This document shows, piece after piece, positions 11,477 through 32,986 of a stretch of DNA of 34,253 nt (the stretch's first letter is position 1; the number at the start of each line of letters is the position of its first letter). Made by a program: the position numbers and the translations under genes. Under the pieces are notes generated by a model, which was given only the letters and a program-made list of their open reading frames with translations, did no database searches and was not told where the DNA came from. Source of the stretch: an uncultured delta proteobacterium (GTDB lineage: Bacteria > Desulfobacterota > Syntrophia > Syntrophales > Smithellaceae); NCBI GenBank assembly GCA_903907985.1, contig CAIVQG010000064.1:1-34253 (forward strand). The letters run 5' to 3'.

Positions 11477-11542
11477 ATTATCAACGACTTTATTCCATTT
11501 GGTGGCAAATAATACAATAAAGAGACTTTAACCTGGAAGCGC

Positions 11543-15610: not shown

Positions 15611-15620
15611 TTTATGCCGG

Positions 15621-15648
15621 GGATCTGCGGCCTGACGGTCGCAGATCC
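15621..15648 (+). terminator. Stable hairpin between binding-protein and permease genes
   Basis: GGATCTGCG (15621-15629) pairs perfectly with CGCAGATCC (15640-15648) around a ten-base loop, with only a short T-containing tail. In ABC importer operons such a hairpin often stabilises the binding-protein mRNA or partly terminates transcription, giving more binding protein than permease. That role is inferred. Confidence 0.6.
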
Positions 15649-15751
15649 TCCTTTAGAATAGGGAATATTCACATAGGTAACATTTGTTTGCGGTAATAAT
15701 AACCTGACTTAAGCTTAGGTTCAGGGAAACGGGAGTAAACAAAGAGATCAT

Positions 15752-17664: not shown

Positions 17665-17668
17665 GCCA

Positions 17669-18403: not shown

Positions 18404-19094
18404 TGATCTGAGCGCCGCTTACGGCGTGATCCCTGTCCTCCACGGCGTGAGTCTCGAAGTTCGGGAGGGAGAAATTGTCGCCCTGCTGGGGGGGAACGGC
18501 GCCGGGAAAACAACGGTGCTTAACAATATCTCCGCGGTAATGCCCATCAAAACAGGAAGTATCTCCTTTATGGGTGCCGAAATACAAAACCTGTCTTCCG
18601 ACAAGATTGTCCAGCTCGGCATATCTCAGATTCCCGAAGGAAGAAAAATATTCACTTATCTGACCGTGAAAGAAAACCTGCTCATGGGAGCCTGTACGCC
18701 GCGAGCCTGGAAACAGCGGAAGAAAACAATGGATAAGGTATGCACTTTATTTCCCATCCTGAAGGAACGCTCCGGTCAGAGGGCCAGCCTGATGAGTGGA
18801 GGAGAACAGCAAATGCTGGTAATTGCCCGCGGATTGATGGCCCAGCCCAAACTCCTCATGATCGATGAGCCGTCGCTGGGTCTCAGCCCGCTCATTATGT
18901 CTCAGATTTATGACGTCATCAAAACATTTCCCGCCGATGGAATTACCGTGCTCCTGTCGGAGCAGAATGCGCTTTATGCCCTGGAAATCGCCGATCGGGG
19001 CTATGTTTTACAGGACGGGCACATTGTATTGGAAGGAACGAACGATTTTCTCTTAAACAATGAACTGGTAAAGAAAGCTTATATAGGAATGTAA
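18390..19094 (+). CDS. ABC importer ATPase, LivF type
   Basis: A 234-residue ATPase with Walker A G-G-N-G-A-G-K-T-T (34-42), an intact signature M-S-G-G-E-Q (135-140) and Walker B L-L-M-I-D-E (155-160) followed by P-S-L-G-L-S-P, which is typical of LivF. It overlaps the end of the LivG-type gene by 14 bases and has AGGAG upstream. With the previous gene it forms the ATPase pair of the importer. Only two bases separate its stop from the first CoA-transferase start. Confidence 0.9.
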   Translation: MLNINDLSAAYGVIPVLHGVSLEVREGEIVALLGGNGAGKTTVLNNISAVMPIKTGSISFMGAEIQNLSSDKIVQLGISQIPEGRKIFTYLTVKENLLMGACTPRAWKQRKKTMDKVCTLFPILKERSGQRASLMSGGEQQMLVIARGLMAQPKLLMIDEPSLGLSPLIMSQIYDVIKTFPADGITVLLSEQNALYALEIADRGYVLQDGHIVLEGTNDFLLNNELVKKAYIGM

Positions 19095-19096
19095 AG

Positions 19097-20455
19097 ATGA
19101 CTGAAGACTATTTTGGTTTTACCAACAAGCTTTTTGCCCCGCAGGACACCGATAAAAAAGCGGAAGCGCTCAAAGGCATCCGCGTGCTCGATCTATCCCA
19201 TATGATTTTCGGCCCGACGGCGGCGAAATTCCTGGCGCAGTATGGCGCCGAGGTCATTAAGGTGGAAGTTCCCAATCAGGGCGACTACTGGCGTGGCGGT
19301 ACTTACTGGGGCAAGTATTGGAAGCACTCCAATCCCCTGTGGCATTTCATCAATCAGAGCAAATATTTTGTTGCTATTGATGTTAAGAAACCCAAGGGCA
19401 AGGATCTGATCCTTAAGCTCGCGGAAAAAGCCGATATCGTCATCGAAAATTTCACCTCCGGGACTGTGGAGGCATGGGGTATCGGCTATTCCCAGATCAG
19501 TAAAATTAATCCTAAAGTCATTTATGCCAGTTTGAGCACTTATGGACAGTATGGACCGAAACGGTATAATCCAGGATGGGACTTACTGGCACAGGGTGCC
19601 AGCGGCGTCCTGTCGGTAACCGGTCATCCGGATACAGATAAATATTTTAAGGTTCCTGATTTTTTCGGTGATTTTTTTCCCGGATATTACGCGGCCATGC
19701 TTATTCTTATCGCCCTCAACTACCGGGAGCGTTCCGGAGAGGGGCAGTATCTCGACGGATGTCAGGCGGAAATCCTGATGCGAGCATTATCCCATTTTAC
19801 TTATCATGATGCCACCGGCAATGATCTCGGGCGCACCGGCAATTCGGACCCCACTATGTCCCCCTCGGGAATATTCAAGACGCTCGATGGAAAATTTCTC
19901 GCGCTGGCCATTGCCTCGGATAAGCAATTTCAATCTTTCTGCAAAGCCCTGGGCCGCGAAGACCTCGCCCGTGACGAAAAATATAATAAGGCTTTCCGCC
20001 GGCTCCAGCCGGAACATGCCCTAACGTTAAATAAAGTCGTTGAGGAATGGGTGAGAACGAAAGACGCAGCCGAATTAATCGAATTGGCCCGTAAACACCG
20101 CTTTGCCGCTACCGAGGTAATGGATGATGTGCAGATCTGCAATGATGAATGGCGGCAGGAAAGGGGAAGCGTTATTCCCTTTGAAGACGATATGTATAAA
20201 AAGCTGGTTATCGAAGGACCGATCGCCATGCTCAGCAAAACACCGGGACGGACGAAATGGCTTTCCCGGCCACTGGGTTATCATAATCGCTATGTCTTAA
20301 AGAAAATCATGGGACTGACGGAAGACCAGATTAAAGAATTGGAAAAAGAAAGAGTAGTGGGTAACTGGGATTATCGGGTCGGCCAGAGACCACCGATTTA
20401 TCATGACCTGGCCAAAGACAAGATATTTAATTACAAAGGGGGTGAGGACCATTAA
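19097..20455 (+). CDS. Family III (CaiB/BaiF) CoA-transferase, subunit with Asp
   Basis: A 452-residue CoA-transferase. The N-terminal fold is marked by G-I-R-V-L-D-L-S and by A-E-V-I-K-V-E (51-57). The motif W-D-L-L-A-Q-G-A-S-G (161-170) places Asp162 where, by my reading, the family's catalytic aspartate forms the acyl anhydride. Family III enzymes move CoA between carboxylates without ping-pong release of free acid. The gene starts two bases after the importer ATPase and its end overlaps the next CoA-transferase, so import and activation are encoded in one transcript. Tandem pairs of this kind make heteromeric enzymes, as in succinyl-CoA:benzylsuccinate CoA-transferase. The substrate here is not known. 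Confidence 0.85.
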   Translation: MTEDYFGFTNKLFAPQDTDKKAEALKGIRVLDLSHMIFGPTAAKFLAQYGAEVIKVEVPNQGDYWRGGTYWGKYWKHSNPLWHFINQSKYFVAIDVKKPKGKDLILKLAEKADIVIENFTSGTVEAWGIGYSQISKINPKVIYASLSTYGQYGPKRYNPGWDLLAQGASGVLSVTGHPDTDKYFKVPDFFGDFFPGYYAAMLILIALNYRERSGEGQYLDGCQAEILMRALSHFTYHDATGNDLGRTGNSDPTMSPSGIFKTLDGKFLALAIASDKQFQSFCKALGREDLARDEKYNKAFRRLQPEHALTLNKVVEEWVRTKDAAELIELARKHRFAATEVMDDVQICNDEWRQERGSVIPFEDDMYKKLVIEGPIAMLSKTPGRTKWLSRPLGYHNRYVLKKIMGLTEDQIKELEKERVVGNWDYRVGQRPPIYHDLAKDKIFNYKGGEDH

Positions 20456-21794
20456 AGAGCGCATTTATTCGAGATACTTGCAGAAGACAAGTTCATCCGG
20501 ACCATTGTCCGAATGGAGCCAGCTTCTATCGAAAATGATGACCTCCGAAGGAAAGCCCGAAGCCCTCGATGACATGATGGTCCTCGATTTAAGTTATGCC
20601 AATTTTTCCGGCAATATTACAGCGAGTTTTTTCGCCGAAGCCGGCGCCGAGGTTATTAAGATTGAACCACCCGAAGGAGATCCATCCCGAATCATCAGCC
20701 CTTACGGGGCCAATGTAAAGGGCGTGGGCATTCCCTATCTGATGGAGAGCCGGAACAAGCGCAATGTTGCGCTGGATTTGAGCAAACATGAAGACAGAGA
20801 AAACCTCAAACTCCTCGCTACCCGGGCCGACGTTCTGATTGAAACCTTTGCCCCCGGCGAAATGGATGACTGGGGAATCGGATACCGGCAATTGCGGGAA
20901 CTCAATCCCGGCCTGATTTATATTGCTATCACGCCTTATGGGCATTACACAGCCAAGGGCAAAGAGATGGCCGGTATGCCATGGACTGAACTGACCTCGC
21001 AGGCCGAGTCCGGTCTGGCCGCTCTGATCGGCGATCTTCCGAACACTCCGGAACCTTATAACTGGCCGACCCGCGCGGGGTTTTATGCTGCCGGATATAC
21101 ATCCGCTGTCGGAGCAGCCTGCGGAGGCCTTGTGGCTTCTTTCTTCAAACGCCGGACCGGTGAAGGTCAAATGGTTGATATCGCTTCAGCCGATGCTTAC
21201 GCTTCCTGTGTCGGGTTCCCGCCCACCATCGGCTACGTCTGGAAGAAACCAAGATTTCGTTACGGGACTCTCGATTATGGCCTTTGCCCTTACGGGTTTT
21301 TTAAATGCAAAGACAGCTATGTGGCCATTGCCTGCTTCCGGGATCAGGACTTTCGGGCAGCTATGAGAATCCTGGGAAAATGGAAGTTGGAGGGAGAATG
21401 GAAAACGCTCCTTGATCGCATCACGGATGATATTGATAAAGTTAAAGAGTTGAATAGTGAAGTCGAGGATGCTGTCGCCAAGTATACTTACGATGAGATT
21501 AATGAAAAATTTTCTTCCTTCAGCGTAAAATCAGCCCGTTCCAAGTGGCGAGGGGGAGGGCTTCCGGTCACTACAAAAATGTTAACACCCAAAGAGGTCC
21601 TTCAGGAAAAACACTGGCAGGTTCGTGGCTCTTTTGCTAAAGTAGAACATCCCTCTTATGGAATTGTAACCCTACCTGTAACCGGTAAGTTGTCGAAAAC
21701 GCCTTTAAGGGTCAAATGGCTTTCCGCCGATATTGGCGAAGATAATGAATATATTTTTAAAAAATACGGATTAGTAGAAAAAAAGTCCGGTTAA
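20442..21794 (+). CDS. Family III (CaiB/BaiF) CoA-transferase, subunit with Glu
   Basis: About 450 residues, homologous to the preceding protein. A-E-V-I-K-I-E and the glycine-rich W-T-E-L-T-S-Q-A-E-S-G loop are recognisable. Where the first subunit has Asp162 this one has Glu183 (numbered from the GTG), so it may be the non-catalytic or modified partner of a heteromer. Glutamate at this place is not rare in the family. The start is uncertain. No start codon has a good ribosome binding site: GTG at 20442 overlaps the upstream gene by 14 bases, ATG at 20403 lies deeper inside it, and conserved sequence begins only near residue 41. Translation is probably coupled to the upstream gene. Confidence 0.82.
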   Translation: MRTIKERIYSRYLQKTSSSGPLSEWSQLLSKMMTSEGKPEALDDMMVLDLSYANFSGNITASFFAEAGAEVIKIEPPEGDPSRIISPYGANVKGVGIPYLMESRNKRNVALDLSKHEDRENLKLLATRADVLIETFAPGEMDDWGIGYRQLRELNPGLIYIAITPYGHYTAKGKEMAGMPWTELTSQAESGLAALIGDLPNTPEPYNWPTRAGFYAAGYTSAVGAACGGLVASFFKRRTGEGQMVDIASADAYASCVGFPPTIGYVWKKPRFRYGTLDYGLCPYGFFKCKDSYVAIACFRDQDFRAAMRILGKWKLEGEWKTLLDRITDDIDKVKELNSEVEDAVAKYTYDEINEKFSSFSVKSARSKWRGGGLPVTTKMLTPKEVLQEKHWQVRGSFAKVEHPSYGIVTLPVTGKLSKTPLRVKWLSADIGEDNEYIFKKYGLVEKKSG

Positions 21795-22127
21795 ACCATA
21801 ATCATTCATTAACTCGGCGATGATGGACCGCTCATTCCTGCGGTTTTGGCGCAACATTTGGGCCGTGATACCGCGATGTCAATGACATGCCGGTTGTTCG
21901 TTGCGGCTGCCGAAAAGACCATTAAGCACAAAGCATCTCAAGAGCAATCCTGCGTTGCAGGCTGAATTTAAGAAATCTCCACATATCATAGGCTGTCGGT
22001 TGTTTGAATAATGAAGATCAGCTCTCCATGTGGTTGCTATTTCATGACCAAGCCTGTTCGGGAAGCATGATGGAATCATTATTTCAATAACAATAAGCAC
22101 CAATAAATAATTCTAAGGAGGAATCTG
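21795..22127. other. Intergenic region before the acyl-CoA synthetase gene
   Basis: About 330 bases with no convincing gene on either strand and no clear -35/-10 pair. It contains a small hairpin, CCTGC-GTT-GCAGG (21949-21961), and becomes AT-rich just before a strong AAGGAGG at about 22115-22121. A minus-strand frame of 74 codons (21879-22103) resembles nothing I know. The dyad sites seen before tetR and the importer are absent here. Confidence 0.5.
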
Positions 22128-23921
22128 ATGTATCAATTAACCAAGCCGGACAATGTGGTGGAAATGCTGGAGAAATCAGTTGTAAAATTTGCTCAGAGAC
22201 CTTTTCTGGGAACAAAAAACAAGAAGTTGAAACAATATGACTGGATAACATTTTCCGATTTCGGATCGCGCGTGGATAATGTCAGAAGCGGATTAAGTCA
22301 ACTGGGTATTGTGAAAGACGATGCCGTAGGCATTATATCAAATAACAGCACGGACTGGGCGGTCTGTTTTTACGCCACCAACGGTCTGGGCGCAAGGCTT
22401 GTACCCATGTATGAGGCTGAGCTGGTCTCGGTATGGAAATACATTATTAATGACGCTAAGGTGAAGGTACTTTTTGTCACCAAGAGAGAAATATACGAAA
22501 AAATCAAAGACATCATTTCTGCAGTATCAACACTGAAAAAAGTAATAATAATGGAAGGAGATGGGCTGGATACACTGGCGGATATAGAAAAAAAAGGTGC
22601 AACCAGGAAAGTGCCAAGCACCTATCCAGAACATTCGTCGATATGCATTCTGATCTATACATCGGGAACAACCGGCGAACCAAAAGGCGTGCTTCTTTCT
22701 CAGGGAAATATAACAAGCAATGCTCATGCTACGACGGTTAGCTTTCCGGATATGAATGAAAATGACAGGACTTTATCCATTCTACCCTGGGCGCACGTTT
22801 TCGGACTCGCGGAACTGGTTACATACTGTCATATAGGCGGGTCAATAGGTTTTGCGGAAAGCGCAGCGACAATTGGTGATGATTTGCTTCTGGTTAAGCC
22901 GACCTATCTTATCGCCGTGCCCAGGGTCTTCAACAGGGTGTATGACGGGTTATGGACAAAGATGAACGAAGAAGGCGGACTGGCCAGGAAATTATTCGTC
23001 ATGGGAGTGGAGAGTGCCAAGAAGAAGCGAGGACTGGCCGCACAGGGCAAATCCTGCTTTAAGACCAATCTGAAATTTAAAATAGCGGACGCTATTGTTT
23101 TTAAAAAAATTCGGGAGAAGCTCGGAGGAAGATTAACCGGATCCATGACCGGCAGTGCCGCGATGAATCCGGAAATTTCTCACTTTTTCTGGGATATGGG
23201 TATTCCTCTTTATGACGCTTACGGATTGACCGAGACTTCTCCGGGTGCAACTATGAACTGCCCGTCTAAATACAAGATCGGTAGTGTAGGTCCTGTCATG
23301 GACAAGTGCAAAATAGTCATTGATAAGTCAGTTGTCGGGCCGGAGGCTACGGATGGCGAAATAATCATTTACGGACCTAACGTCATGCAGGGATATTTTA
23401 ACAAGCCCGAAGCCACAGCGGCTGTTATGACTCCTGATGGCGGATTCCGGACCGGTGACCGCGGACGTCTGGACGAGGAAGGCTTCCTGTTTATTACCGG
23501 AAGGCTCAAAGAGCAGTTCAAGCTCGAAAACGGCAAATACGTATTCCCTGTGGCTATTGAAGAAGATATCAAGCTGAACCACTACGTTGAAAACGCGATG
23601 ATCTGCGGGGAAGGACGGGAGTTTAATGTTTGCCTGATCATTCCGGACTTTATCGCGCTGGATAAATGGGCCGAAAAAAATAATTTGCCCAAGGACCATG
23701 CCGAATTGTTGAAGAGGGAAGAAACAAAGAAATTCCTCGAGAATGAAATTGTCAACCAATTAAAGGATAACTTCGGAAGCTATGAAATTCCGAAAAAATT
23801 TATATTTATTGATCAACCTTTTTCACTGGAAAACGGCATGCTGACCCAGACCATGAAACTCAAGAGACGTGTTGTCTTTGAGAAATACAAGGATCAGATT
23901 GATGCCTTATACGCCAAATAG
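22128..23921 (+). CDS. AMP-forming acyl-CoA synthetase (long-chain, FadD15/FAA1 type)
   Basis: A 597-residue adenylate-forming enzyme that makes an acyl-CoA from a carboxylate, ATP and CoA. The P-loop-like motif Y-T-S-G-T-T-G-E-P-K-G-V is at 177-188, and Y-D-A-Y-G-L-T-E-T-S is the A5 motif that contacts the substrate and AMP. The later motifs are R-T-G-D-R-G-R-L-D-E-E-G, then I-T-G-R-L-K-E, and L-T-Q-T-M-K-L-K-R-R near the C-terminus with the likely adenylation lysine. The K-L-E-N-G-K-Y-V element is typical of the eukaryotic-like long-chain group. The length is normal for that group. A strong ribosome binding site supports the start. It gives a second, ATP-dependent route to a CoA thioester beside the CoA-transferases. 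It probably forms its own transcription unit. Confidence 0.9.
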   Translation: MYQLTKPDNVVEMLEKSVVKFAQRPFLGTKNKKLKQYDWITFSDFGSRVDNVRSGLSQLGIVKDDAVGIISNNSTDWAVCFYATNGLGARLVPMYEAELVSVWKYIINDAKVKVLFVTKREIYEKIKDIISAVSTLKKVIIMEGDGLDTLADIEKKGATRKVPSTYPEHSSICILIYTSGTTGEPKGVLLSQGNITSNAHATTVSFPDMNENDRTLSILPWAHVFGLAELVTYCHIGGSIGFAESAATIGDDLLLVKPTYLIAVPRVFNRVYDGLWTKMNEEGGLARKLFVMGVESAKKKRGLAAQGKSCFKTNLKFKIADAIVFKKIREKLGGRLTGSMTGSAAMNPEISHFFWDMGIPLYDAYGLTETSPGATMNCPSKYKIGSVGPVMDKCKIVIDKSVVGPEATDGEIIIYGPNVMQGYFNKPEATAAVMTPDGGFRTGDRGRLDEEGFLFITGRLKEQFKLENGKYVFPVAIEEDIKLNHYVENAMICGEGREFNVCLIIPDFIALDKWAEKNNLPKDHAELLKREETKKFLENEIVNQLKDNFGSYEIPKKFIFIDQPFSLENGMLTQTMKLKRRVVFEKYKDQIDALYAK

Positions 23922-24061
23922 ATTTTCATTCTATAGTGTCTTTGAGACGGCACTTGGAAAAGCTAAAGAGGTGGCCAGCGTCCACTTTTTTTGCCGGCGA
24001 GCGGCAGTGCTCATCTCTTCGTGCTGAAGAGAATTCTTCGGTCAGGCATGGTTGAATAAAT

Positions 24062-24149
24062 TTAGTAAGACTATTATATTAGATAATAAATAATAGTTAA
24101 ACTATGAAATAAAAAAATCCTTGACAGTCAGACTATGTTATTTTATAAT
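24062..24149 (+). promoter_or_regulatory. tetR promoter with three phased 13-bp dyads
   Basis: TTGACA (24121-24126), a 17-base spacer and TATAAT (24144-24149) match the consensus perfectly. Dyad sites lie at 24062-24074 (TTAGTAAGACTAT), 24093-24105 (ATAGTTAAACTAT, a perfect palindrome) and 24124-24136 (ACAGTCAGACTAT), each 31 bases after the last, or about three helical turns. The third overlaps the -35 box. The 45 bases at 24105-24149 match 37 of 45 positions at 14248-14292 before the importer operon. The simplest reading is autoregulation by the TetR protein. Confidence 0.78.
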
Positions 24150-24177
24150 ATAATCACATTGGCCAGAGGAGAGAGTG

Positions 24178-24930
24178 ATGACTGAAAAAAACAAGGTGAA
24201 AAGCAGGAAAGACAGGATCATGGAGGCCGCTCTGCGGATTTTTGCCGATAAGGGATTCCAGGATACCACTATTGCGGAGATCAGCAAAAAGGCCGGTGTT
24301 TCCGAAGCTACTGTGTATGAGAATTTTGGCACTAAAGAAGATCTTTTGTTTGCCATCCCCGAAAAGGTAACAGTTGAAACCATCGCCGAGTTTGAAAGAG
24401 TTCTTCCCTATATCAAAGGAACAGAGGCTCGGATCAGGGCTGTATTATGCAGTTATGTCCGCCTTTATCACGAGAATCCAGACTATTCGGCCCTGGTTCT
24501 GCTGCAGCTTATGCCCAATAAGCGGTTCCGCCAGACCAAGGCTCATGCGACGATCCGCCGGTCTGCTCATATCCTCCTGAATTGTATCCGGGACGGTATT
24601 GAAGACGGTACCTTTAAAAATAATGTAAATCCGTACCTGCTTCGCTCCATGTTCCTTGGAACTATTGAGCATATGTTCATCCAGTGGCACCTCAAAGGAT
24701 TATCAAAAAAGGAACCCGTAATGGATTTTCTGGATCCCTTAATTGACAACATTCTGGACGGTATCCGGGAAAAAGACCAGGAATCAGGTCTGGTCCTGAG
24801 GTTGAATATCGATGATGCCAGACTTCTGAATGAGATGATGCAGGCAAAAGAAAAAAAGGAAAAAAGAGAATACGGGGTTTCCCGAAAGAGCGCAAAACAG
24901 GATAAACATTTGAACAAGAAAAAGGAGTAA
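24178..24930 (+). CDS. TetR-family transcriptional regulator (fatty acyl/CoA type)
   Basis: A 250-residue regulator. The N-terminal helix-turn-helix (about 11-58) has the standard I-M-E-A-A-L-R-I-F-A-D-K-G-F, T-I-A-E-I-S-K-K-A-G-V-S and T-V-Y-E-N-F-G-T-K-E-D-L-L pattern. The ligand domain resembles those of TetR proteins that sense acyl-CoAs, but this is by impression. The C-terminus (about 213-250) is an unusual Lys/Arg/Glu-rich tail. ATG 24178 is chosen over GTG 24175 because AGAGGAG lies six bases before it. Four bases separate it from the dehydratase-type gene, so the two are co-transcribed. Three dyad sites in its promoter suggest that it represses itself and the importer operon. Confidence 0.88.
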   Translation: MTEKNKVKSRKDRIMEAALRIFADKGFQDTTIAEISKKAGVSEATVYENFGTKEDLLFAIPEKVTVETIAEFERVLPYIKGTEARIRAVLCSYVRLYHENPDYSALVLLQLMPNKRFRQTKAHATIRRSAHILLNCIRDGIEDGTFKNNVNPYLLRSMFLGTIEHMFIQWHLKGLSKKEPVMDFLDPLIDNILDGIREKDQESGLVLRLNIDDARLLNEMMQAKEKKEKREYGVSRKSAKQDKHLNKKKE

Positions 24931-24934
24931 TACC

Positions 24935-26398
24935 ATGAGAACAAAAGAACAATACATTGCAGGGCTCCGGAAAATGAGACGCAATCTCTATCATGACGGC
25001 GAAAAGATCGACCGCGATGACGAACTTCAGCAACCTGTCCTGAACGTGATGGGCATCACCTTCGACGCCGTCAACGATCCGGAATTGAGGGATCTGTGCA
25101 CAGCCACTTCCCATATAACAGGCGAAACCATCAACCGCTTCTGTCATGTGCATCAAAGTACGGACGATCTTCACAAGAAGCAGGACATGACCAGGGCATT
25201 GTGCCGTAAGGCGGGGATGTGCATCCAGCGTTGCATGGGCACCGATGCTCTTAACGCAGTCAACGCCGTTTCCTTCGAAGCGGACAAGGCGAACAGCGGG
25301 AATACCTCGTACTACAAGAACTTTCTCAAATGGCTCGAACGATTCCAGAAAGAAGACCTCGTAGGAAGCTGTGCCCAGACGGATGTCAAGGGCGAGCGCC
25401 TGAAGCGTCCAGTCCAGCAGACGGATCCAGACATGTATGTCCGCGTTGTGGAAAAGAAAAGCGATGGAATCGTCGTAAGGGGCTGCAAGCTGCACATTTC
25501 CGAGGCCTCCATATCCGACGAAATACTTGTTCTTCCTACCCGCGCCCTGGGCCCCGACGAGAAGGACTACGCAGTGGCCTTTGCCGTTCCCTCCGATTAC
25601 GAAGGAGTCAAGCAGGTCGTCTCCATCCACAGCCAGCACAAGCGCAAAAGTATCAAGCGCGGTATAGATATCGGCTACTCCGACTCCTACATCATCTTTG
25701 AGGATTGCTTTGTTCCCTGGGAACGTGTCTTCCTCTGCGGCGAAAACGATCACGGCGGCCTGAGTGCTCTGCTGTTTGCGCTGTTCCACCGCCACAGCTA
25801 CTCAGGATGCAAGCCCGCCATCGGGGACGTCTTCCTCGGCCTGGCAGCCCTGGCAGCGGAATACAACGGCATTGAAAAGACCCCCCATGTGAAGGAAATG
25901 CTGTCAGAGATCATCAAGATCTCGGAGCTGGGTTATGCCGCAGGTTTCACGGCCTCCAGCCTGGGTAAACCGGAAGTCATAATCCCGGGTATGGGCAGTT
26001 GCCCTTACGGTCCGGGCAGCTACATTCCCAACTCCATTTACTGCAATGTGGGACGCTGTCTGACGGGCGAAGCGGTTTTCCATGAGCAGGAACTCCTCTG
26101 CCGGATTGCCGGCGGTGTCCCGGCTACCTTCCCCTACGAAGGCGACCTGACTCATCCCGATCTGAAGGCGGTCCTGGAAAAGTACCTTAACCGCAATCCC
26201 AAGGTTCCAGTGGAAGACCAGATTAAGTTCTGGATGACTCTGGGCGACTACACCATCGGCACTATGGCCGGTGTTATGAACTACGGCAACTACCACGGCG
26301 GCGGATCACCCATCATGGAGCAAATCGCCATCACGTCCCAGTACGACATTAAGTCGAGGAAAAAACTGGTGAAGACCCTGGCGGGGATCAAGAGCTGA
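24935..26398 (+). CDS. 4-Hydroxybutyryl-CoA dehydratase-type 4Fe-4S flavoprotein
   Basis: A 487-residue member of the HpaB/AbfD superfamily. Against the Clostridium aminobutyricum AbfD sequence as I recall it, all four unusual cluster ligands are present: Cys96 and Cys100 in C-I-Q-R-C, and His285 and Cys292 in H-R-H-S-Y-S-G-C. Tyr289 matches the AbfD catalytic tyrosine (Tyr296). The H-Q-S-T-D-D-L and K-D-Y-A-V-(A/S)-F-A blocks also agree. Flavin monooxygenases of the superfamily lack the ligands, so a radical dehydratase or vinylacetyl-CoA isomerase-like activity is more likely than hydroxylation. The N-terminus, length and A-G-I-K end fit AbfD. The substrate may be another 4-hydroxyacyl- or 3-enoyl-CoA. 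AAGGAG supports the start. A strong hairpin follows the gene. Confidence 0.85.
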   Translation: MRTKEQYIAGLRKMRRNLYHDGEKIDRDDELQQPVLNVMGITFDAVNDPELRDLCTATSHITGETINRFCHVHQSTDDLHKKQDMTRALCRKAGMCIQRCMGTDALNAVNAVSFEADKANSGNTSYYKNFLKWLERFQKEDLVGSCAQTDVKGERLKRPVQQTDPDMYVRVVEKKSDGIVVRGCKLHISEASISDEILVLPTRALGPDEKDYAVAFAVPSDYEGVKQVVSIHSQHKRKSIKRGIDIGYSDSYIIFEDCFVPWERVFLCGENDHGGLSALLFALFHRHSYSGCKPAIGDVFLGLAALAAEYNGIEKTPHVKEMLSEIIKISELGYAAGFTASSLGKPEVIIPGMGSCPYGPGSYIPNSIYCNVGRCLTGEAVFHEQELLCRIAGGVPATFPYEGDLTHPDLKAVLEKYLNRNPKVPVEDQIKFWMTLGDYTIGTMAGVMNYGNYHGGGSPIMEQIAITSQYDIKSRKKLVKTLAGIKS

Positions 26399-26437
26399 TC
26401 AACTTCCATTAGTTGAATTCTAATCTTTCTGTGAACA

Positions 26438-26477
26438 CCCCGGCAGCCGCTGTAATACCCCGCGGCGGCCGGGGTTT
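26438..26477 (+). terminator. Strong GC hairpin after the dehydratase-type gene
   Basis: CCCCGGC (26438-26444) pairs with GCCGGGG (26468-26474), and inside it GCCGC (26446-26450) pairs with GCGGC (26462-26466), around an 11-base loop. Only three T follow, so termination may be partial or factor-assisted. It separates the tetR-dehydratase unit from the beta-oxidation genes. Confidence 0.65.
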
Positions 26478-26561
26478 GGCATGAATAGAGAAGAGATCGG
26501 CAGGGGTTCGAAATTATTGTAACGTTATTTCCCCTCCGAGGCAAGACAGCAGTCAGCAAGG

Positions 26562-26591
26562 GCGATTCACCCTGATTAAATCACGAATCGC
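26562..26591. promoter_or_regulatory. Dyad upstream of the crotonase gene
   Basis: GCGATTC (26562-26568) and GAATCGC (26585-26591) form a perfect inverted repeat with a 16-base spacer, about 55 bases before the crotonase start. It could be an operator or a leader hairpin. I found no clear -35/-10 pair in this gap. Confidence 0.35.
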
Positions 26592-26644
26592 TGTGACCCT
26601 GTTTTTTTGGATAGGGAACATCAAAAAATAAACAGGAGGCAGAC

Positions 26645-27430
26645 ATGGAGTACCAGTACATATTGTTCCAGGTGGATAAGGGAATAGCCACCATCACGCT
26701 GAATAGACCGAAAGAAATGAACTGCATCAATTTCGGGATGGTTGAGGAAATAGTCGCTGCCGTCGACCGCTGCGAAAAGGATGAGCAGATCCGGGCAGTA
26801 GTTGTAACAGGAGCAAGCCAGATGTTTTCCGCCGGAGATGACATCAAAATGATGGAACTGGCGAAGACTCTTTCGGCGCCGGAAGTAGCACAAACGATCG
26901 AAACAAAGGCATATCCCGTAGTGATGAAACGTTTGATGGCCTTACCCAAACCGGTCATTGCCTGTGTCAACGGCATTTGCTTCGGTGCGGGCGGAGAAAT
27001 CGCCCTGGCCTGCGATTATATTATTGCCTCCGATCAGGCGTCTTTCGGCCAGTTATACATCAACCTCGGACTCATCGGGAACACGTACCTTCTACCCAAG
27101 GCCGTCGGTGTGCGCAATGCCCTCGAACTCATCTGGACAGGCAAGATCATCAACGCCGAAGAAGCGCTCCGACTAGGCATGATCAATAAAGTGGTCCCGG
27201 CGGCGTCACTGGAAGAAGAAACGGCTAAGCTGGCGGGTCGTATGGCCAAAGGTCCGACGCTGGCCTACGGTTATGCCAAGAAGGTTCTCCTCGGAAGCCT
27301 GAACATGGAGGCGGACGAGGCCATCAAACTGATGACGGATGCACAGGGAAAACTTATGAAGACGACTGATCATCAGGAAGGCGTTCAAGCCTTCACCCAA
27401 CGGAGGAAACCCGCCTTCACCGGCGCATGA
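26645..27430 (+). CDS. Enoyl-CoA hydratase/isomerase (crotonase family)
   Basis: A 261-residue crotonase. The CoA-binding and oxyanion-hole stretches are S-A-G-D-D-I-K (62-68) and F-G-A-G-G-E-I-A (113-120). Glu118 matches the first catalytic glutamate of rat enoyl-CoA hydratase (Glu144). The second (Glu164), exactly 20 residues on, is replaced by Tyr138 in F-G-Q-L-Y-I. A plain two-glutamate hydratase mechanism is therefore unlikely. An isomerase, or a hydratase with altered chemistry, fits better. AGGAGG supports the start. It heads a run of CoA-linked genes and is 25 bases before the dehydrogenase. The fusion protein downstream has both glutamates and could supply ordinary hydratase activity. 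Confidence 0.85.
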   Translation: MEYQYILFQVDKGIATITLNRPKEMNCINFGMVEEIVAAVDRCEKDEQIRAVVVTGASQMFSAGDDIKMMELAKTLSAPEVAQTIETKAYPVVMKRLMALPKPVIACVNGICFGAGGEIALACDYIIASDQASFGQLYINLGLIGNTYLLPKAVGVRNALELIWTGKIINAEEALRLGMINKVVPAASLEEETAKLAGRMAKGPTLAYGYAKKVLLGSLNMEADEAIKLMTDAQGKLMKTTDHQEGVQAFTQRRKPAFTGA

Positions 27431-27455
27431 AAAAATTTGTGTAAGGAGACAGATT

Positions 27456-28367
27456 GTGAAATCGGAAGATATTCAACGCATCCTGATTATCGGCGGTGGC
27501 ACCATGGGACGGCAGATCGCCCTCCATTTTGCCATTTACGGCTGCAACGTCGTCATCTACGATATCCAGGAAGAATTCCTGACCAAAGCATTAGCGATTA
27601 TTCAAAAGATGGCCGGAACCTATGTTCACCTGAAGCGGATCACCCCGGAGGAGGCCCAGGCGGCGATCGGCCGGATTAAGACCACGACGCTTCCGGAAGA
27701 GGCGGCCACGGATATCGATCTGGTGAGTGAATCGGTTCCCGAAGACCCCGTCCTGAAAGGGAAGGTGTTTTCTCTTTTTCACAGTCTCTGTCCGCCCCGC
27801 ACCATCTTTACCACAAACACTTCCACCCTGCTGCCGTCGATGTTTGCCGAGGCAACGGGAAGGCCCGGTAAGTTTATCGCCCTCCACTTTCACGATCTAC
27901 GTACTAACACTGTTGTCGATATCATGCCCCATCCCGGAACCGATGAAGAAACGATTCATGCCGTTCAGGGTTTCGCGAAACGGATGGGACTTATCGATAT
28001 TATGCTCGGCAAGGAAAGCAGCGGCTATGTCTTCAATGCCATGCTCCGGGCTTTTCTCGAATCAGCGCAAACCCTCGCCGCCAACGGTATCTCATCCATT
28101 GAAGACATTGACAGGTCCTGGATGGGAGTTATGAATATGCCGATAGGTCCCTTCGGGCTGATGGACAGCATCGGCATCGATACATCGTGGAAGGTTACGT
28201 CTTACTGGGCAAAACAAACCGGCGACGCGCAATTAAAGAAAAATGCCGACTTTCTGAAACAGTTTGTGGATCGGGGTGAAGTCGGCCAGAAAACAGGAAA
28301 AGGATTTTATCGGTACCCCGGTCCGTTGTTCCGACAACCGGGATTCATTGCCGGTCACGCCATTTAA
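27456..28367 (+). CDS. 3-Hydroxyacyl-CoA dehydrogenase family protein, stand-alone
   Basis: A 303-residue NAD-dependent dehydrogenase. The Rossmann motif is G-G-G-T-M-G (13-18) with the acidic residue in V-V-I-Y-D (33-36 region). The N-T-S-T-L block is present. The catalytic histidine is His144, but the usual H-F-F-N-P and following Glu are replaced by H-F-H-D-L-R-T-N and Asp155, one residue closer than normal. I recall a similar H-F-H-N / V-V-D-I-M-P-H-P-G-T form in some Firmicute proteins of this family, so it is a subfamily and not decay. GTG start with AAGGAG eight bases upstream. The protein may act on a branched or otherwise unusual 3-hydroxyacyl-CoA. Confidence 0.84.
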   Translation: MKSEDIQRILIIGGGTMGRQIALHFAIYGCNVVIYDIQEEFLTKALAIIQKMAGTYVHLKRITPEEAQAAIGRIKTTTLPEEAATDIDLVSESVPEDPVLKGKVFSLFHSLCPPRTIFTTNTSTLLPSMFAEATGRPGKFIALHFHDLRTNTVVDIMPHPGTDEETIHAVQGFAKRMGLIDIMLGKESSGYVFNAMLRAFLESAQTLAANGISSIEDIDRSWMGVMNMPIGPFGLMDSIGIDTSWKVTSYWAKQTGDAQLKKNADFLKQFVDRGEVGQKTGKGFYRYPGPLFRQPGFIAGHAI

Positions 28368-28369
28368 TG

Positions 28370-28388
28370 GGGAAACAAATGGTTTCCC
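28370..28388 (+). other. Small perfect hairpin in the intergenic spacer
   Basis: GGGAAAC (28370-28376) pairs with GTTTCCC (28382-28388) around a five-base loop, between the dehydrogenase and the acyl-CoA dehydrogenase. It has no T-tract and is probably a transcript-processing or stability element, if functional. Confidence 0.4.
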
Positions 28389-28415
28389 GTAAAATAACGC
28401 AGGGAGGATAGAGAC

Positions 28416-30278
28416 ATGACTAATTTATTGGTGAATATGAGAGATCAGCAGTTCCTGCTTTTTGAGCAGTTGGGTATCGAGAAGCTATTTGCGAAGGAGA
28501 AGTATAAGGATTTCTCCAAGGATGACGTGTTGATGCTGCTGAACGAAGCGGAGAAAATGGCCGTCAATGTTATTTTGCCGACCAATGTTATCGGCGACCG
28601 GGAAGGCTGCACATTCAAGGACGGCAAAGTAACAGTACCGGCGGTATTCCACGATGCCTACCAGAAGTTTGTCGAAGCCGGCTGGCTTTGCCCCACCCGG
28701 TCTGTCGATGTGGGGGGACAGGGAATGCCACTTCTCATGAGCAATGCCTGTTCGGAACTTTTTGTGGCGGCCAACTATCCCTTTACTATGTACCCGGGAT
28801 TGACCAACGGAGCGGCGGCACTCATCGAAAATTTCGGTACTGAAGAGCAGAAGAACAAGTACATGGTCAAGATGTATGCCGGGCAATGGGGCGGAACCAT
28901 GTGCCTCACGGAACCGGGTGCGGGCAGCGATGTCGGGGCGCTGAAAACGACGGCGAAAAGACTGCCGGACGGAACTTTCAGCATCACGGGAACCAAGTGC
29001 TTTATCTCCAGCGGTGATCACGATCTCACGGAGAATATCATCCATCCCGTACTGGCCAGAATCGAAGGTGATGCTCCCGGAACTGCGGGCATCTCCATCT
29101 TTATCGTTCCCAAGTACCGGGTTAACGATGACGGTACTCTTGCCGGTAGTAACGACGTGCAAACGGGCAATATCGAGCACAAGATGGGCATTCACGGCAA
29201 TGCAACCTGCACGCTGAACTTCGGCGACAACGGGAGCTGCATCGGTGAACTCTTGGGCAAGGAGTGTGAAGGCCTGAAGGTCATGTTCCAGTTGATGAAT
29301 GAAGCCCGCATCGAAGTCGGCTATCAGGCCCTGGGCACAGCAAGCGCCTGCCTGGAGCGCTCCGTCCAGTATGCCAAGGAAAGAATTCAGAGCGCGCCCG
29401 TCTGGGAAATGAAGAATCCCGACGCTAAGGCCGTTTCCATTATTCAACATCCGGATGTCCGCAGAGATCTCCTCTGGATGAAATCCCGCGTGGAAGCCAT
29501 GCGGGCCATTCTTTACTACTCTTCCTATTGCCTCGACCTGGCGGAATCCACCGAGTCAAAGCCGGAGCACGAGAAGTGGAAGGGCATGGCCGAACTGCTG
29601 ATTCCCGTTTGCAAGGCCTGGGTTTCCGACAACGCCATGATCGTCTGTTCCAAGGCGATGGATGTGCACGGTGGTTACGGCTTCTGCGCCGAGTATCCCG
29701 TCGAGCAGTATCTGAGGGACTGCAAGATCACCACCATCTACGAGGGCACCAACGGCATCCAGAGTCTCGATCTGGTAGGCCGTAAGCTCGGTTCCAAAAA
29801 AGGCGCCAATGTCATGAATCTAGTCGGCGAAATCATGGCGACCATTGGTAAGGCCAAAGCCAGCGCCAGCATGAAGGCTTATGCGGCAGCGCTGGAAGAG
29901 GCGTGCAATGCCATCATCGATCTGACCATGACCTTCGGCCAGCTCGGCAAAAGCGGCGGCTTTCTCCTCCCGATACTGAATGCATCGCCGTTCATGGATG
30001 CGTTCGGCGATCTCGTGGCGGGAAATATCCTGATGCAGGCGGCGTTGATTGCCGAAGAGAAGCTCACAGGCATTTACGAGGCGAAGAGCGCCGATACAAT
30101 CGGCAAGCAGCGCGCTTTGGTTCATGATAATCCCGATGTGGCCTTCTATGCCGGGAAAGTTTCTTCAGCGAAATTCTTTGCCAATGAAGCCCTCACAACG
30201 GTGAAGGCCCGGTGTGAAGCGATCAAGTTTGGCGACAAATCTACTTTGGAGATCGCCGACGAATCTTTCGCTTCCTAA
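28416..30278 (+). CDS. Acyl-CoA dehydrogenase, long (about 620 aa) FadE5-like type
   Basis: A 620-residue FAD enzyme that introduces the trans-2 double bond of an acyl-CoA and passes electrons to ETF. The length, with extensions at both ends, places it in the FadE5-like group and not the 380-residue short type. M-C-L-T-E-P-G-A-G-S-D (162-172) is the flavin and substrate loop. T-I-Y-E-G-T-N-G-I-Q carries the probable catalytic base Glu443. The A-M-D-V-H-G-G-Y-G block precedes it. AGGGAGGA supports the start. There are no etf genes in the window, so the electron acceptor must be encoded elsewhere. Confidence 0.9.
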   Translation: MTNLLVNMRDQQFLLFEQLGIEKLFAKEKYKDFSKDDVLMLLNEAEKMAVNVILPTNVIGDREGCTFKDGKVTVPAVFHDAYQKFVEAGWLCPTRSVDVGGQGMPLLMSNACSELFVAANYPFTMYPGLTNGAAALIENFGTEEQKNKYMVKMYAGQWGGTMCLTEPGAGSDVGALKTTAKRLPDGTFSITGTKCFISSGDHDLTENIIHPVLARIEGDAPGTAGISIFIVPKYRVNDDGTLAGSNDVQTGNIEHKMGIHGNATCTLNFGDNGSCIGELLGKECEGLKVMFQLMNEARIEVGYQALGTASACLERSVQYAKERIQSAPVWEMKNPDAKAVSIIQHPDVRRDLLWMKSRVEAMRAILYYSSYCLDLAESTESKPEHEKWKGMAELLIPVCKAWVSDNAMIVCSKAMDVHGGYGFCAEYPVEQYLRDCKITTIYEGTNGIQSLDLVGRKLGSKKGANVMNLVGEIMATIGKAKASASMKAYAAALEEACNAIIDLTMTFGQLGKSGGFLLPILNASPFMDAFGDLVAGNILMQAALIAEEKLTGIYEAKSADTIGKQRALVHDNPDVAFYAGKVSSAKFFANEALTTVKARCEAIKFGDKSTLEIADESFAS

Positions 30279-30293
30279 TATTTTCATTACATC

Positions 30294-30345
30294 AACCCCG
30301 TCTTGCGGTCGTTTATAAGCAAACGATGGGAAACGATACGGGGTT
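30294..30345 (+). other. Nested stem-loop in the leader of the fusion gene
   Basis: AACCCCGT (30294-30301) pairs with ACGGGGTT (30338-30345). Inside, CGTTT (30310-30314) pairs with AAACG (30321-30325), and AAACGAT occurs twice. It ends 30 bases before the start codon and is followed by TTAAAAAAG. It may be a terminator of the upstream unit or a leader structure. Confidence 0.5.
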
Positions 30346-30375
30346 TAAAAAAGAACATCATCAAGGAGGATCATC

Positions 30376-32796
30376 ATGTCGTATGCAATCAAAAAAGCCG
30401 CCGTTCTGGGGTCAGGTGTCATGGGCGCCACCATAGCGGCTCATCTGACCAATGCGGGTATCGAGTGCTGTCTGCTGGATATCATACCGTTTGAGCTGAC
30501 GGAAGCGGACAAGAAGAAGGGTCTGACCGAGCAGAGCCCCGCCTGGCGCAACCGCTTCGCTGCTGCCGGCCTGGCCGGCGTGACCAAATCAAAGCCCGCC
30601 AGTTTTTTTGCCAAAAAGAACGCGTCCATGATCAGGATCGGCAACTTCGAGGACAATCTGGGTTGGCTGGCCGATGTGGACTGGGTTTGCGAAGTAGTTA
30701 TCGAAAACCTGAAAATCAAGCAGGAACTTTTTGCGAAAGTTGAAAAGATCGTAAAGCCCACCTGCATAGTTTCCACCAACACTTCGGGGATTCCCGTCAA
30801 GGACATCTCAACGAATTTCAGTGCCAGCCTGAAGGAGCGTTTCCTGGGCACCCACTTCTTCAATCCGCCCCGCTACATGAAGCTGCTGGAGATCATTCCG
30901 GGCAAGGAAACGAAGAAGGACATCGTCGACTTCATGGTCAGCTTTTCCGAAGAACGCCTGGGCAAAGGCGTTGTCATCTGCAAGGATGTTCCCAACTTCA
31001 TCGGAAACCGCATTGGGACTTACGACCTGACGAATGCCATCCGGATCATGGTAGAGAAGAAGATGAAAATCGACGAAGTTGATGCAGTGATCAGTAAGGC
31101 CGTCGGTCGTCCCGGCACGGCCATCTTCGGCACCCTCGATCTCGTTGGACTCGACACGGGATATCATGTCATGAAAAACCTCTATGAAGCCGTCAAGGAC
31201 GATGAGTCGCGGGATGTCTTCATTCCTGTCGATTTTCTCTCTAAAATGATGGAAAATAAATGGCTGGGCAATAAGACGAAGCAGGGTTTCTACAAGAAGA
31301 TCAAGGATGACAAAGGCAAGACTGTTAAAATGGTTTTGGACTACAACACCATGGAATACATTCCTGCGGGCAAGCCCACCTTCGATTCCCTGGCCGAAGC
31401 CAAGAAGAAGGGTGAGGAAGGAGTGGGCGCCATGGCCAGATCTCTGTTCAACGGAAGTGATGCCGCCGCCGATCTTATCCGGGAATACTTCTGCAATAAT
31501 TTTATTTATGCTGCCAACCGCGTACCTGAGATCTGCGACAATATCGTGGCCGTCGACAACGCCATGAAGTGGGGCTATAACCACCAGCTCGGTCCCTTCG
31601 AGTTGTGGGATGCCGTTGGCGTGAAAGACGTCGTCGCCGTAATGAAGAAGCTCAAGAAGAAGGTGCCCAAGAAGATCGAAGAAATGCTGAAAGCCGGCTG
31701 CGAATCTTTCTATGTTAAGAAGAAAGACGGCCTTTACTGCTATGACTTTGCGGCCAAAGGCTATGTGAAGGTCGATGATAATCCGAAAGTAATCCTCCTG
31801 CCCGCGCTGAAAGAACGGAAGAAGGTCATTAAGTCCAATGAAAGTGCATCCCTGGTCGATATCGGAGACGGTGTGGTCTGCCTGGAATTCCACACGAAAA
31901 TGAACGCCGTGGACGACGGTCTGGTGGAAATGATTTTTGCCGGTTGCGATATCGTGGAAAATGATTTTGCCGGTATGGTGGTGGGCAACCACGCCGCCAA
32001 TTTCTCTGCCGGCGCCAATATCTTCAAGATCCTCGGAGCCTGCCAGAGCGGCCAGTGGGATGTCCTTACGAAACTCAGTTCCGAATTCCAGAATGCCAAT
32101 ATGCGGATGAAGTATCTGTCCAAACCCGTGGTTACGGCCCCGGCCGGATTGACTCTTGGCGGTGGCTGTGAGATGGCGATGCACGGTGCGAGATGTCAGG
32201 CCTGCGGCGAGACCTACATGGGACTTGTCGAAGTCGGCGTAGGCGTCATTCCCGGGGGCGGCGGCTGTAAGGAAATAGCCCTGCGTCTCACCGAAGGGAT
32301 TCCGACCGGCGCCATCGAAGCGGGTCTGAATATCCAGCAGTTTTATACCAAGGCCTTCGAGAATATCGCCATGGCAAAGGTGTCCACAAGCGCTGTCGAA
32401 GCCATGGATCTGGGCTACATCCGGAAAACGGAGAACATCAGCATGAACCGGGATCAGCAACTCTGGGACGCCAAGCAGCTTGTTCTTGGTCTGTCCGGCG
32501 TATACAAAGCGCCCCGCCCAGCCCTGATTCCCGTCATGGGAGAAAACTTCAGAGGCATTATCGAGGCAGCACTCTATAATATGCGTGGCGGCAATTACGT
32601 CTCGGATTATGACGTCCATGTGGCCAGAAAAGTGGCCTATATACTGTCCGGTGGCGACTGTGCCGAAGGAACTTATGTCACGGAACAGGAACTTCTGGAT
32701 CTGGAAAGAGAAGCTTTCCTGAGCCTCTGCGGCGAGCAGAAAACCCAGGATCGCATTACGCACATGTTGACAACGGGCAAACCCCTGCGCAACTAA
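30376..32796 (+). CDS. 3-Hydroxyacyl-CoA dehydrogenase / enoyl-CoA hydratase fusion (FadN-like order)
   Basis: An 806-residue bifunctional enzyme for hydration and oxidation in beta-oxidation. The dehydrogenase comes first: G-S-G-V-M-G (12-17), then T-H160-F-F-N-P with Glu172 twelve residues on, the canonical His-Glu dyad. A second dehydrogenase-type C-terminal region (about 380-440) follows. The C-terminal crotonase half (about 490-690) has both catalytic glutamates, Glu599 in G-G-G-C-E and Glu619 in G-L-V-E-V-G-V-G-V-I-P-G-G-G-G. The dehydrogenase-before-hydratase order is that of Bacillus FadN and unlike E. coli FadB. AAGGAGG supports the start. With the thiolase it forms a standard beta-oxidation module. 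Confidence 0.9.
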   Translation: MSYAIKKAAVLGSGVMGATIAAHLTNAGIECCLLDIIPFELTEADKKKGLTEQSPAWRNRFAAAGLAGVTKSKPASFFAKKNASMIRIGNFEDNLGWLADVDWVCEVVIENLKIKQELFAKVEKIVKPTCIVSTNTSGIPVKDISTNFSASLKERFLGTHFFNPPRYMKLLEIIPGKETKKDIVDFMVSFSEERLGKGVVICKDVPNFIGNRIGTYDLTNAIRIMVEKKMKIDEVDAVISKAVGRPGTAIFGTLDLVGLDTGYHVMKNLYEAVKDDESRDVFIPVDFLSKMMENKWLGNKTKQGFYKKIKDDKGKTVKMVLDYNTMEYIPAGKPTFDSLAEAKKKGEEGVGAMARSLFNGSDAAADLIREYFCNNFIYAANRVPEICDNIVAVDNAMKWGYNHQLGPFELWDAVGVKDVVAVMKKLKKKVPKKIEEMLKAGCESFYVKKKDGLYCYDFAAKGYVKVDDNPKVILLPALKERKKVIKSNESASLVDIGDGVVCLEFHTKMNAVDDGLVEMIFAGCDIVENDFAGMVVGNHAANFSAGANIFKILGACQSGQWDVLTKLSSEFQNANMRMKYLSKPVVTAPAGLTLGGGCEMAMHGARCQACGETYMGLVEVGVGVIPGGGGCKEIALRLTEGIPTGAIEAGLNIQQFYTKAFENIAMAKVSTSAVEAMDLGYIRKTENISMNRDQQLWDAKQLVLGLSGVYKAPRPALIPVMGENFRGIIEAALYNMRGGNYVSDYDVHVARKVAYILSGGDCAEGTYVTEQELLDLEREAFLSLCGEQKTQDRITHMLTTGKPLRN

Positions 32797-32845
32797 GCCG
32801 TTGTTCAACAATAGCTATATCATTGTAACATCGTAAGCGGCATAA

Positions 32846-32959
32846 GGGGCCGTAAAGAAATGTTTATAAATGTAATAGTCTTGCCACACTTTAGCGGTGG
32901 TTATTTTGTAACGGCCCCCAACAACTAATAATTGACAGGCCGCCGGCTTTAAGAGCCGG
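32846..32959. other. Structured spacer before the thiolase gene
   Basis: The 190-base gap contains a long-range stem, GGGGCCGT (32846-32853) with ACGGCCCC (32911-32918), enclosing a small CCAC/GTGG hairpin (32884-32900). A second hairpin follows, CCGGCT-TTAAG-AGCCGG (32943-32959). A TTGACA at 32932-32937 has no matching -10 box. The structures end 27 bases before the thiolase start. Confidence 0.45.
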
Positions 32960-32986
32960 TGTCCGTTACATACAAGGAGGAACATC

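Follow-up and report, generated by a model that had tools for sequence, protein, structure and literature searches.

What does an enzyme do that keeps the iron-sulphur ligands of 4-hydroxybutyryl-coenzyme A (CoA) dehydratase, AbfD, and is encoded among genes of acyl-CoA degradation? The question is raised by a 34,253-nucleotide contig of an uncultured delta proteobacterium of the Smithellaceae (CAIVQG010000064.1, assembly GCA_903907985.1), the whole of which is called the window here and in which the gene for a TetR-family regulator is followed by that for an AbfD-like protein of 487 amino acids (aa). AbfD is the textbook case of a flavin and an iron-sulphur cluster making a substrate radical without B12, S-adenosylmethionine or ATP. 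The safest claim is that the window protein is one of a distinct, widespread group, sister to AbfD, in which the cluster ligands are kept and which has ties to acyl-CoA degradation. As to its reaction, a probability of about one half is given to the reading that it is an acyl-CoA dehydratase/isomerase with flavin adenine dinucleotide (FAD) and a [4Fe-4S] cluster, working in an AbfD-like manner at C4 of an acid larger than C4 and feeding beta-oxidation.

The closest solved relatives of the protein were AbfD of C. aminobutyricum (1U8V, 328 bits) and 6VJR (271 bits), by its structure title the 4-hydroxybutyryl-CoA dehydratase of Nitrosopumilus maritimus; HpaB monooxygenases were far behind with at most 104 bits. 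A structure model predicted from the window protein and 53 other sequences, all from related loci, had a mean predicted local distance difference test score of 86.4 and the fold of AbfD. In a Foldseek comparison with the PDB 1U8V ranked first with a template modelling (TM) score of 0.89 and 36 % identity, 6VJR followed at 0.88-0.89, and HpaB-type chains took ranks 5-41 at 0.76-0.83. The C-x3-C and H-x6-C ligand set and the active-site tyrosine, named in a preliminary description of the locus, were borne out by the alignment to 1U8V, in which C99, C103, H292 and C299 correspond to C96, C100, H285 and C292 of the window protein and Y296 to Y289; K300, R293 and H458 are also common to both. Flavin monooxygenases of the HpaB/HadA type (2YYG, 9LFT, 6JHM) share the fold, within the TM range of the HpaB-type chains, and the Pfam domains, but 2YYG has no cluster ligands and is distant from the window protein on the tree. 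On the evidence of its sequence, the protein belongs to those members of the AbfD/HpaB superfamily that bear cluster ligands and is no monooxygenase.

The family was represented by 156 open reading frames (ORFs) from 155 sequences, 145 of them near full length and distinct, which together with three PDB chains gave 148 rows. For the tree one row was taken per group of 78 % identity (53 of 148) and the long rows L116 and L143 were removed to leave 51; a quick tree of all 53 gave the same groups. The 45 rows with cluster ligands formed one group (support 100/99) apart from the six others. The window clade (19 rows) had a support of 100/99, as it did together with four basal rows carrying A or S at position 455 (23 rows), and the AbfD clade (16 rows) had 96/91, or 100/98 when two odd motifs were included (22 rows). 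The window protein was placed neither inside the AbfD clade nor in the HpaB monooxygenase group that lacks cluster ligands. The preliminary description, which was to fall if the protein belonged to the flavin monooxygenase clade, has survived this comparison; its label "AbfD-type" has not, since the protein falls outside the clade of AbfD and has no E455, and the AbfD-type gene of this genome is found elsewhere (C30). An orthologue of AbfD is ruled out by the same two facts, and on this tree the protein is a sister of AbfD, neither AbfD nor a monooxygenase. The site motif of the window protein occurred in 82 of the 148 rows and that of AbfD in 36, including 1U8V and 6VJR; the latter rows were picked by a motif that includes E455, so that their E455 is no finding, whereas the tree is. 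A third clade with cluster ligands (nine of 148 rows; four tree rows, support 100/100), seen in L118, L122, L130, L134, L139 and L142 from genomes of the same phylum, carries Y296H, E257C and E455S, replacing three catalytic residues of AbfD, and a clade of three of the 148 rows (L136, L115, L132) combines Y296C with all four cluster ligands. The other rows were variants or had no cluster ligands.

Active-site residues were counted in the window protein and the best 80 of 108 confirmed stretches, aligned to 1U8V (81 rows; the row of locus L003, the same gene copy as L136, was unused), and for some positions in a wider set of 92 rows. Clade counts from both the relative search and the phylum search refer to the best matches listed and are no census. 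C99, C103, H292, C299, Y296 and K300 were identical in all 81 rows, and the clade thus has the [4Fe-4S] ligands of AbfD as well as Y296, its redox-active tyrosine. Position 455, which is E in both 1U8V and 6VJR, was G in 80 rows and A in one (G 86, A 5 and S 1 in the wider set), and here the clade departs from AbfD. A misalignment is unlikely because the column is free of gaps and stands beside the HGxGSP motif, three residues away. E257 was replaced by D in 81/81 rows (D 91, E 1 in the wider set), M149 by Q and A460 by G in every row, and T190 by S in 77 with T kept in four; position 101 was Q in 77 and G in four. E257D and T190S are conservative changes. A comparison of 87 clade rows with 36 AbfD-motif rows added the clade-specific changes G147C, H196D, Q294H and Q466E. 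Acidic residues new to the clade were found at 379, 384 and 462 (E in 87/87 rows each) and at 386 (E in 85/87). Of 92 clade rows, 86 have an 11-residue insert at 347-360, which is wholly or mostly lacking in the other six and does not occur in any of the 36 AbfD-motif rows.

In AbfD, E455 is the base, and E257 with T190 the relay to the flavin. A 2015 paper in Applied and Environmental Microbiology reportedly has Y296 deprotonated by E455 and reducing FAD, aided by E257 via T190, and the mutants E455Q, E257Q and Y296W are said there to lose hydratase activity. Given these mutants and the loss of E455, dehydration of 4-hydroxybutyryl-CoA is not to be assumed for the clade. The passages of PMC13101534 that deal with the radical mechanism proposed for AbfD bear out its flavin-semiquinone and allylic ketyl part only. 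A profile comparison with acyl-CoA dehydrogenases, intended to set E455 against the base E376 of medium-chain acyl-CoA dehydrogenase (MCAD), aligned other parts of the proteins only, at most to about column 420.

The nearest named relatives of the window, among the best 80 of the 108 confirmed stretches, were Deltaproteobacteria, Smithella and Syntrophaceae assemblies. Records of the clade, mostly metagenome assemblies, are labelled Thermodesulfobacteriota, Bacillota, Chloroflexota, Actinomycetota, Myxococcota, Pseudomonadota and Spirochaetes. The genome bearing the window (3.4 Mb, 83 contigs) encodes four superfamily members of four kinds, namely the window gene, an AbfD-motif gene (C30) in which all 12 scored site residues are kept, one with Y296C (C11) and one that has no cluster cysteines (C33). 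The last of these is surrounded by genes for an ATP-binding cassette (ABC) importer, a ligase, a short-chain dehydrogenase/reductase (SDR), an acyl-CoA dehydrogenase and 3-hydroxyacyl-CoA dehydrogenase-like proteins.

The gene context was compared over 85 distinct loci, duplicates having been removed by sequence; classes are blastp labels at E 1e-12, relatedness is uncorrected, and ORFs were called by a simple longest-ORF rule by which some genes were missed, for example tetR of L007. Two locus collections overlap, and L017 and L129 are apparently one place, as are L024 and L148. At least one of six beta-oxidation classes was found no more than four genes away in 61 loci, and these classes accounted for 149 of 574 near genes versus 38 of 369 farther ones, kinship ignored. 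Within the same distance lay 3-hydroxyacyl-CoA dehydrogenase or FadN-like genes in 30 loci, ligase and acyl-CoA dehydrogenase genes in 27 each, enoyl-CoA hydratase/isomerase (ECH) in 24, thiolase in eight and class III CoA-transferase in three, along with a sigma-54 activator in 25, SDR and TetR in 16 each and a branched-chain-type ABC importer in eight. With eight and three of 85 loci, importer and CoA-transferases are so infrequent that the importer is not defining for the clade. ECH, acyl-CoA dehydrogenase and 3-hydroxyacyl-CoA dehydrogenase/FadN occurred together in 13 loci and a FadN-like gene in 12. Such sets were seen in Smithella-like bacteria with TetR and in Desulfosporosinus (Bacillota) with a sigma-54 activator and another gene order, and genes of the clade sit among beta-oxidation genes in both Thermodesulfobacteriota and Bacillota. 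An undescribed route, as put forward in the preliminary description, fits this company of the clade genes.

An AbfD-type gene shared the locus with the variant in six of 85 cases, in five of them with the 12-residue motif complete and in L054 as a 177-aa piece. Locus L158, of the same family, has in line a pair of AbfD-motif genes, one crotonase-like gene, tetR, a pair of window-motif genes and an SDR gene. Tandem window-clade genes, present in L158, L024 (= L148), L019 and L020 and adjoined by AbfD-motif genes in L158 and L024, suggest consecutive or heteromeric use. In Desulfosporosinus loci (L048 of D. lacus, L054, L070, L071 of D. hippei and similar) the gene run of the enzyme also encodes a pair of MaoC-like proteins, a DUF362 protein, two proteins resembling ferredoxins and one of 197 aa that has no Pfam match.

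In the window the enzyme gene stands in a context different from that of AbfD (Table 1). The crotonase, dehydrogenases, acyl-CoA dehydrogenase and thiolase announced downstream of it were all recovered. No iron-containing alcohol dehydrogenase (Fe-ADH) or aldehyde dehydrogenase domain was among the Pfam matches of the 22 window proteins scanned (for the WD40 protein, the best 25 of 52 families), and four Fe-ADH genes (PF00465) lie elsewhere in the genome. For the importer binding protein the ATG at 14348 is the likely start, as the TTG at 14264 of the ORF list falls inside the promoter.

Table 1. Features of the window, and two further superfamily genes of the same genome
Feature	Position	Strand	Remarks
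SDR oxidoreductase, divergent from importer	13255-14019	-	PRK07035, 406 bits, above cut-off 373
Promoter/operator segment of importer operon	14264-14289	+	operator-like site 14267-14279
Substrate-binding protein, branched-chain-amino-acid-type ABC importer	14348-15610	+	Peripla_BP_6
Two importer permeases	15752-16627, 16621-17664	+	Pfam
Two importer ATPases	17669-18403, 18390-19094	+	Pfam
Class III CoA-transferase with GWD...Q motif	19097-20455	+	motif aligns with Asp of PDB relatives
Class III CoA-transferase paralogue without aligned Asp	20403-21794	+	start uncertain; possible non-catalytic partner
AMP-forming acyl-CoA ligase	22128-23921	+	NCBIfam/Pfam matches
Operator-like palindrome ATAGTTAAACTAT 5' of tetR	24093-24105	.	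exact match; same site type 5' of tetR in relatives
Sigma-70 promoter-like TTGACA-17-TATAAT of tetR-enzyme pair, 12/12	24121-24149	+	overlapped by second operator-like site 24124-24136
TetR-family regulator	24178-24930	+	ATG 24178, stop 24930
AbfD-like acyl-CoA enzyme, [4Fe-4S] ligands, clade lacking E455	24935-26398	+	487 aa, ATG 24935
Hairpin 3' of enzyme gene, possible terminator or attenuator	about 26437-26476	+	z -4.55 for segment 26395-26500
ECH, crotonase fold	26645-27430	+	
3-Hydroxyacyl-CoA dehydrogenase, PRK08293 type	27456-28367	+	349.9 bits, above cut-off 312
Acyl-CoA dehydrogenase, 620 aa	28416-30278	+	Acyl-CoA_dh_C domain
FadN-like 3-hydroxyacyl-CoA dehydrogenase/crotonase fusion	30376-32796	+	NF052272 616.4 bits, below cut-off 999
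Acetyl-CoA acyltransferase (thiolase)	32987-34183	+	
Y296C gene, own genome, C11 (L136)	about 7365-8813	-	
Superfamily gene without cluster cysteines, own genome, C33 (L137)	8997-10439	+	histidine kept

Upstream of these genes, at 623-13222, lie in a row a 990-aa WD40-repeat protein, a radical SAM protein, two hybrid sensor kinases, a 285-aa protein without a Pfam match and a PAS-GGDEF protein.

In alignments to PDB relatives the CoA-transferase at 19097 keeps the Asp of the GxD...Q motif, the catalytic Asp of class III CoA-transferases, and the one at 20403 has no Asp there; the adjacent paralogues may form a heteromeric enzyme. Benzylsuccinate CoA-transferase (9FN0) is likewise a heteromeric class III enzyme of two adjacent subunits, one without the aligned Asp, and both window proteins match its subunits, but the similarity is low (80-141 bits) and the pair is nearer to chains of the succinate/3-hydroxy-3-methylglutaryl and formyl-CoA type. 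The 620-aa acyl-CoA dehydrogenase matched 6IJC (411 bits) and 8PNS (406 bits) ahead of FadE5 (6KSE, 321 bits). With the fadNAE/FadR fatty-acid oxidation genes of Bacillus the cluster has in common FadN-like and FadA-like proteins, an acyl-CoA dehydrogenase, a ligase, a crotonase and a TetR regulator. Unlike in that system, the FadN-like protein, the regulator and the acyl-CoA dehydrogenase fall below the cut-offs of the FadB/FadN, FadR and FadE models, the dehydrogenase is nearer to 6IJC and 8PNS, and the AbfD-like gene and the ABC importer are additional. The best NCBIfam model of the regulator was Bacillus FadR (NF053878) with 82.3 bits against a cut-off of 200, which does not make it a FadR-type protein.

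Co-transcription with tetR, as claimed earlier, is plausible only for the TetR-enzyme pair, whose ORFs are 4 bp apart; its extension to the ECH gene is doubtful because 246 bp and a strong hairpin come before it. The hairpin has a weak T tail and was not among the terminators that a scan listed. In a promoter scan of 14000-33000, which gave 26 promoter-like sites versus 21 expected, the promoter of the tetR-enzyme pair was the sole 12/12 site, and 23 of its first 26 bases (24121-24146) are common to the importer promoter. The palindromic core AYAGTnnnACTAT, to which TetR presumably binds, occurs at 14267, 24093 and 24124 and at three other places of the genome; the other exact operator matches (C15, C47, C50) did not clearly precede related genes. 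Both operator patterns, the one of 26 bp and the one of 13 bp, were derived from the sites that they score, so that shuffle counts are not independent and the independent support comes from the sites of relatives. Among the 15 loci whose TetR is at least 45 % identical, eight (the window, L005, L008, L009, L010, L011, L083 and L158) have an operator-like site 5' of tetR and seven (L006, L012, L013, L016, L017, L022, L129) do not; L007 has one at the same place, though tetR was not called there. In L006 tetR follows the CoA-transferases and an exact site stands in front of the importer instead, and in the L005 genome the tetR site is exact and the importer site differs at two of 16 bases. With two mismatches allowed, a promoter pattern of 16 bases gave nine hits versus three in the control, and the seven outside the window (C5, C14, C26, C40, C51, C74, C80) led nowhere. 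Importer, CoA-transferases and enzyme are likely to be co-regulated in this lineage. The earlier statement to this effect is thus supported by the shared operator-like promoter, at the level of sequence and for the window and two close relatives.

If the enzyme is an AbfD-like dehydratase/isomerase, the CoA ester would lie between flavin and cluster, and Y289 with a D250-S189 relay would start a flavin-semiquinone/ketyl-radical cycle as in AbfD. With the cluster as Lewis acid, a hydroxyl group (or double bond) at C4 would be eliminated (or shifted) to give a 2-enoyl-CoA, to be degraded by the neighbouring crotonase, 3-hydroxyacyl-CoA dehydrogenase, acyl-CoA dehydrogenase, FadN-like enzyme and thiolase. 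The lost side chain of E455 together with A460G may make room for a C4 substituent, the space of the glutamate being taken by the substrate and its job done otherwise; because of this room an acid larger than C4 is a likelier substrate than 4-hydroxybutyrate. A 4-hydroxy or 4-oxo acid, for example, would be a candidate, an SDR dehydrogenase being a recurrent neighbour, and in this organism the co-regulated ABC system would probably take up the acid and the paired CoA-transferases activate it. Occupancy by cluster and FAD, the radical chemistry and the size and identity of the substrate are what we infer. For the clade as a whole it can be proposed only tentatively that it is a radical FAD/[4Fe-4S] branch which starts the radical without the glutamate of AbfD, by the tyrosine with a base that has moved or is supplied by the substrate, and takes water or some other group off C4 of acids larger than C4.

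Several observations weigh against this reading. The AbfD mechanism is not simply transferable to a protein that has lost E455, the residue whose change to Q reportedly abolishes hydratase activity, and a replacement base was not located in the clade. Genes of the fatty-acid type (FadN-like, FadE-like) are ill-suited to a periplasmic importer for a soluble acid, and 24 of the 85 loci, some of which end at contig ends, have no beta-oxidation neighbour within four genes. The 13-bp operator pattern is not enriched genome-wide (nine hits versus 27 for the reversed control), and the shared importer promoter was found only in the window and two close relatives.

The FadN-like, FadE-type and thiolase neighbours, and a regulator whose best model is FadR, would fit fatty-acid oxidation, and the enzyme could then be a delta3-delta2 enoyl-CoA isomerase that shifts a beta,gamma double bond (odd-position) into conjugation for beta-oxidation, its cluster being mainly structural. 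E455 may matter less for isomerisation than for dehydration, and AbfD has such a side activity on vinylacetyl-CoA, in keeping with the enzyme name of 6VJR. Yet the invariance of the four cluster ligands in 81/81 rows suggests a continuing need for the cluster, isomerases of the crotonase fold do this job already, and the co-regulated importer and CoA-transferases point to a soluble acid, which makes an isomerase unlikely, if the least unlikely of the alternatives; the same two systems weaken the case for long-chain fatty acids as the only substrate. A true 4-hydroxybutyryl-CoA dehydratase, with the role of E455 taken by another residue (E379, E384, E386, E462 or the new loop), is a still weaker candidate. 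Fold and ligands are those of AbfD, the new acidic residues are found in 85-87 of 87 rows and the insert in 86 of 92 clade rows and 0 of 36 AbfD-motif rows, and relocation of the base is known in acyl-CoA dehydrogenases (the MCAD mutant T255E/E376G, 1EGE, was among the structure matches of the model). In this genome, however, there is already an AbfD-type gene in which none of the 12 scored residues is missing, the presence of an AbfD-type gene or fragment beside the variant in six of 85 loci argues against mere redundancy, and no Fe-ADH or aldehyde dehydrogenase gene was among the scanned window proteins.

The nearly clade-wide changes E455G, E257D, M149Q, T190S and G147C, at catalytic positions or in the conserved stretches around them, could also mean that flavin and cluster serve another reaction, either at C4 or with a cyclic or branched acyl-CoA as substrate, for instance with a different leaving group and without the tyrosine/glutamate radical start of AbfD, and the paired CoA-transferases resemble the benzylsuccinate type. 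With Y296, H292 and K300 kept in 81/81 rows much of the AbfD machinery is retained, and this reading is improbable, slightly more so than a true dehydratase. The automatic library names point to an HpaB-family flavin-dependent aromatic monooxygenase: both Pfam domains, PF11794 (289 bits) and PF03241 (176 bits), are named HpaB, and the HpaB equivalog TIGR02309 matched. That match, at 125.4 bits, is far under the cut-off of 480.2, and HpaB was the sole NCBIfam name of all five family members scanned (the window protein, the three other copies of its genome, AbfD-type included, and L118), each below cut-off, so that these names are misleading. Cluster ligands, scores, the tree and the Foldseek ranking set the window protein apart from HpaB, many named hosts are sulphate reducers or syntrophs, and a monooxygenase can practically be dismissed.

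The searched literature, largely at the level of abstracts, gave no description of the window clade, which is large and apparently unstudied. According to PMC3949148, Archaeoglobus fulgidus has three 4-hydroxybutyryl-CoA dehydratase homologues that are not uniformly induced, and among the papers listed on levulinate and 4-hydroxyvalerate the one with 4-hydroxyvaleryl-CoA concerns a Pseudomonas. A natural clade in which the cluster ligands and the tyrosine are present and the glutamate is gone puts to the test which residues start the radical. It also points to an unassigned step in acid breakdown by syntrophs and sulphate reducers, whose genes the protein libraries tried name only as HpaB-type aromatic monooxygenases. 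If the radical is indeed started without the glutamate and acids larger than C4 are the substrates, the clade would give syntrophs and sulphate reducers an anaerobic way of bringing 4-substituted acids into beta-oxidation.

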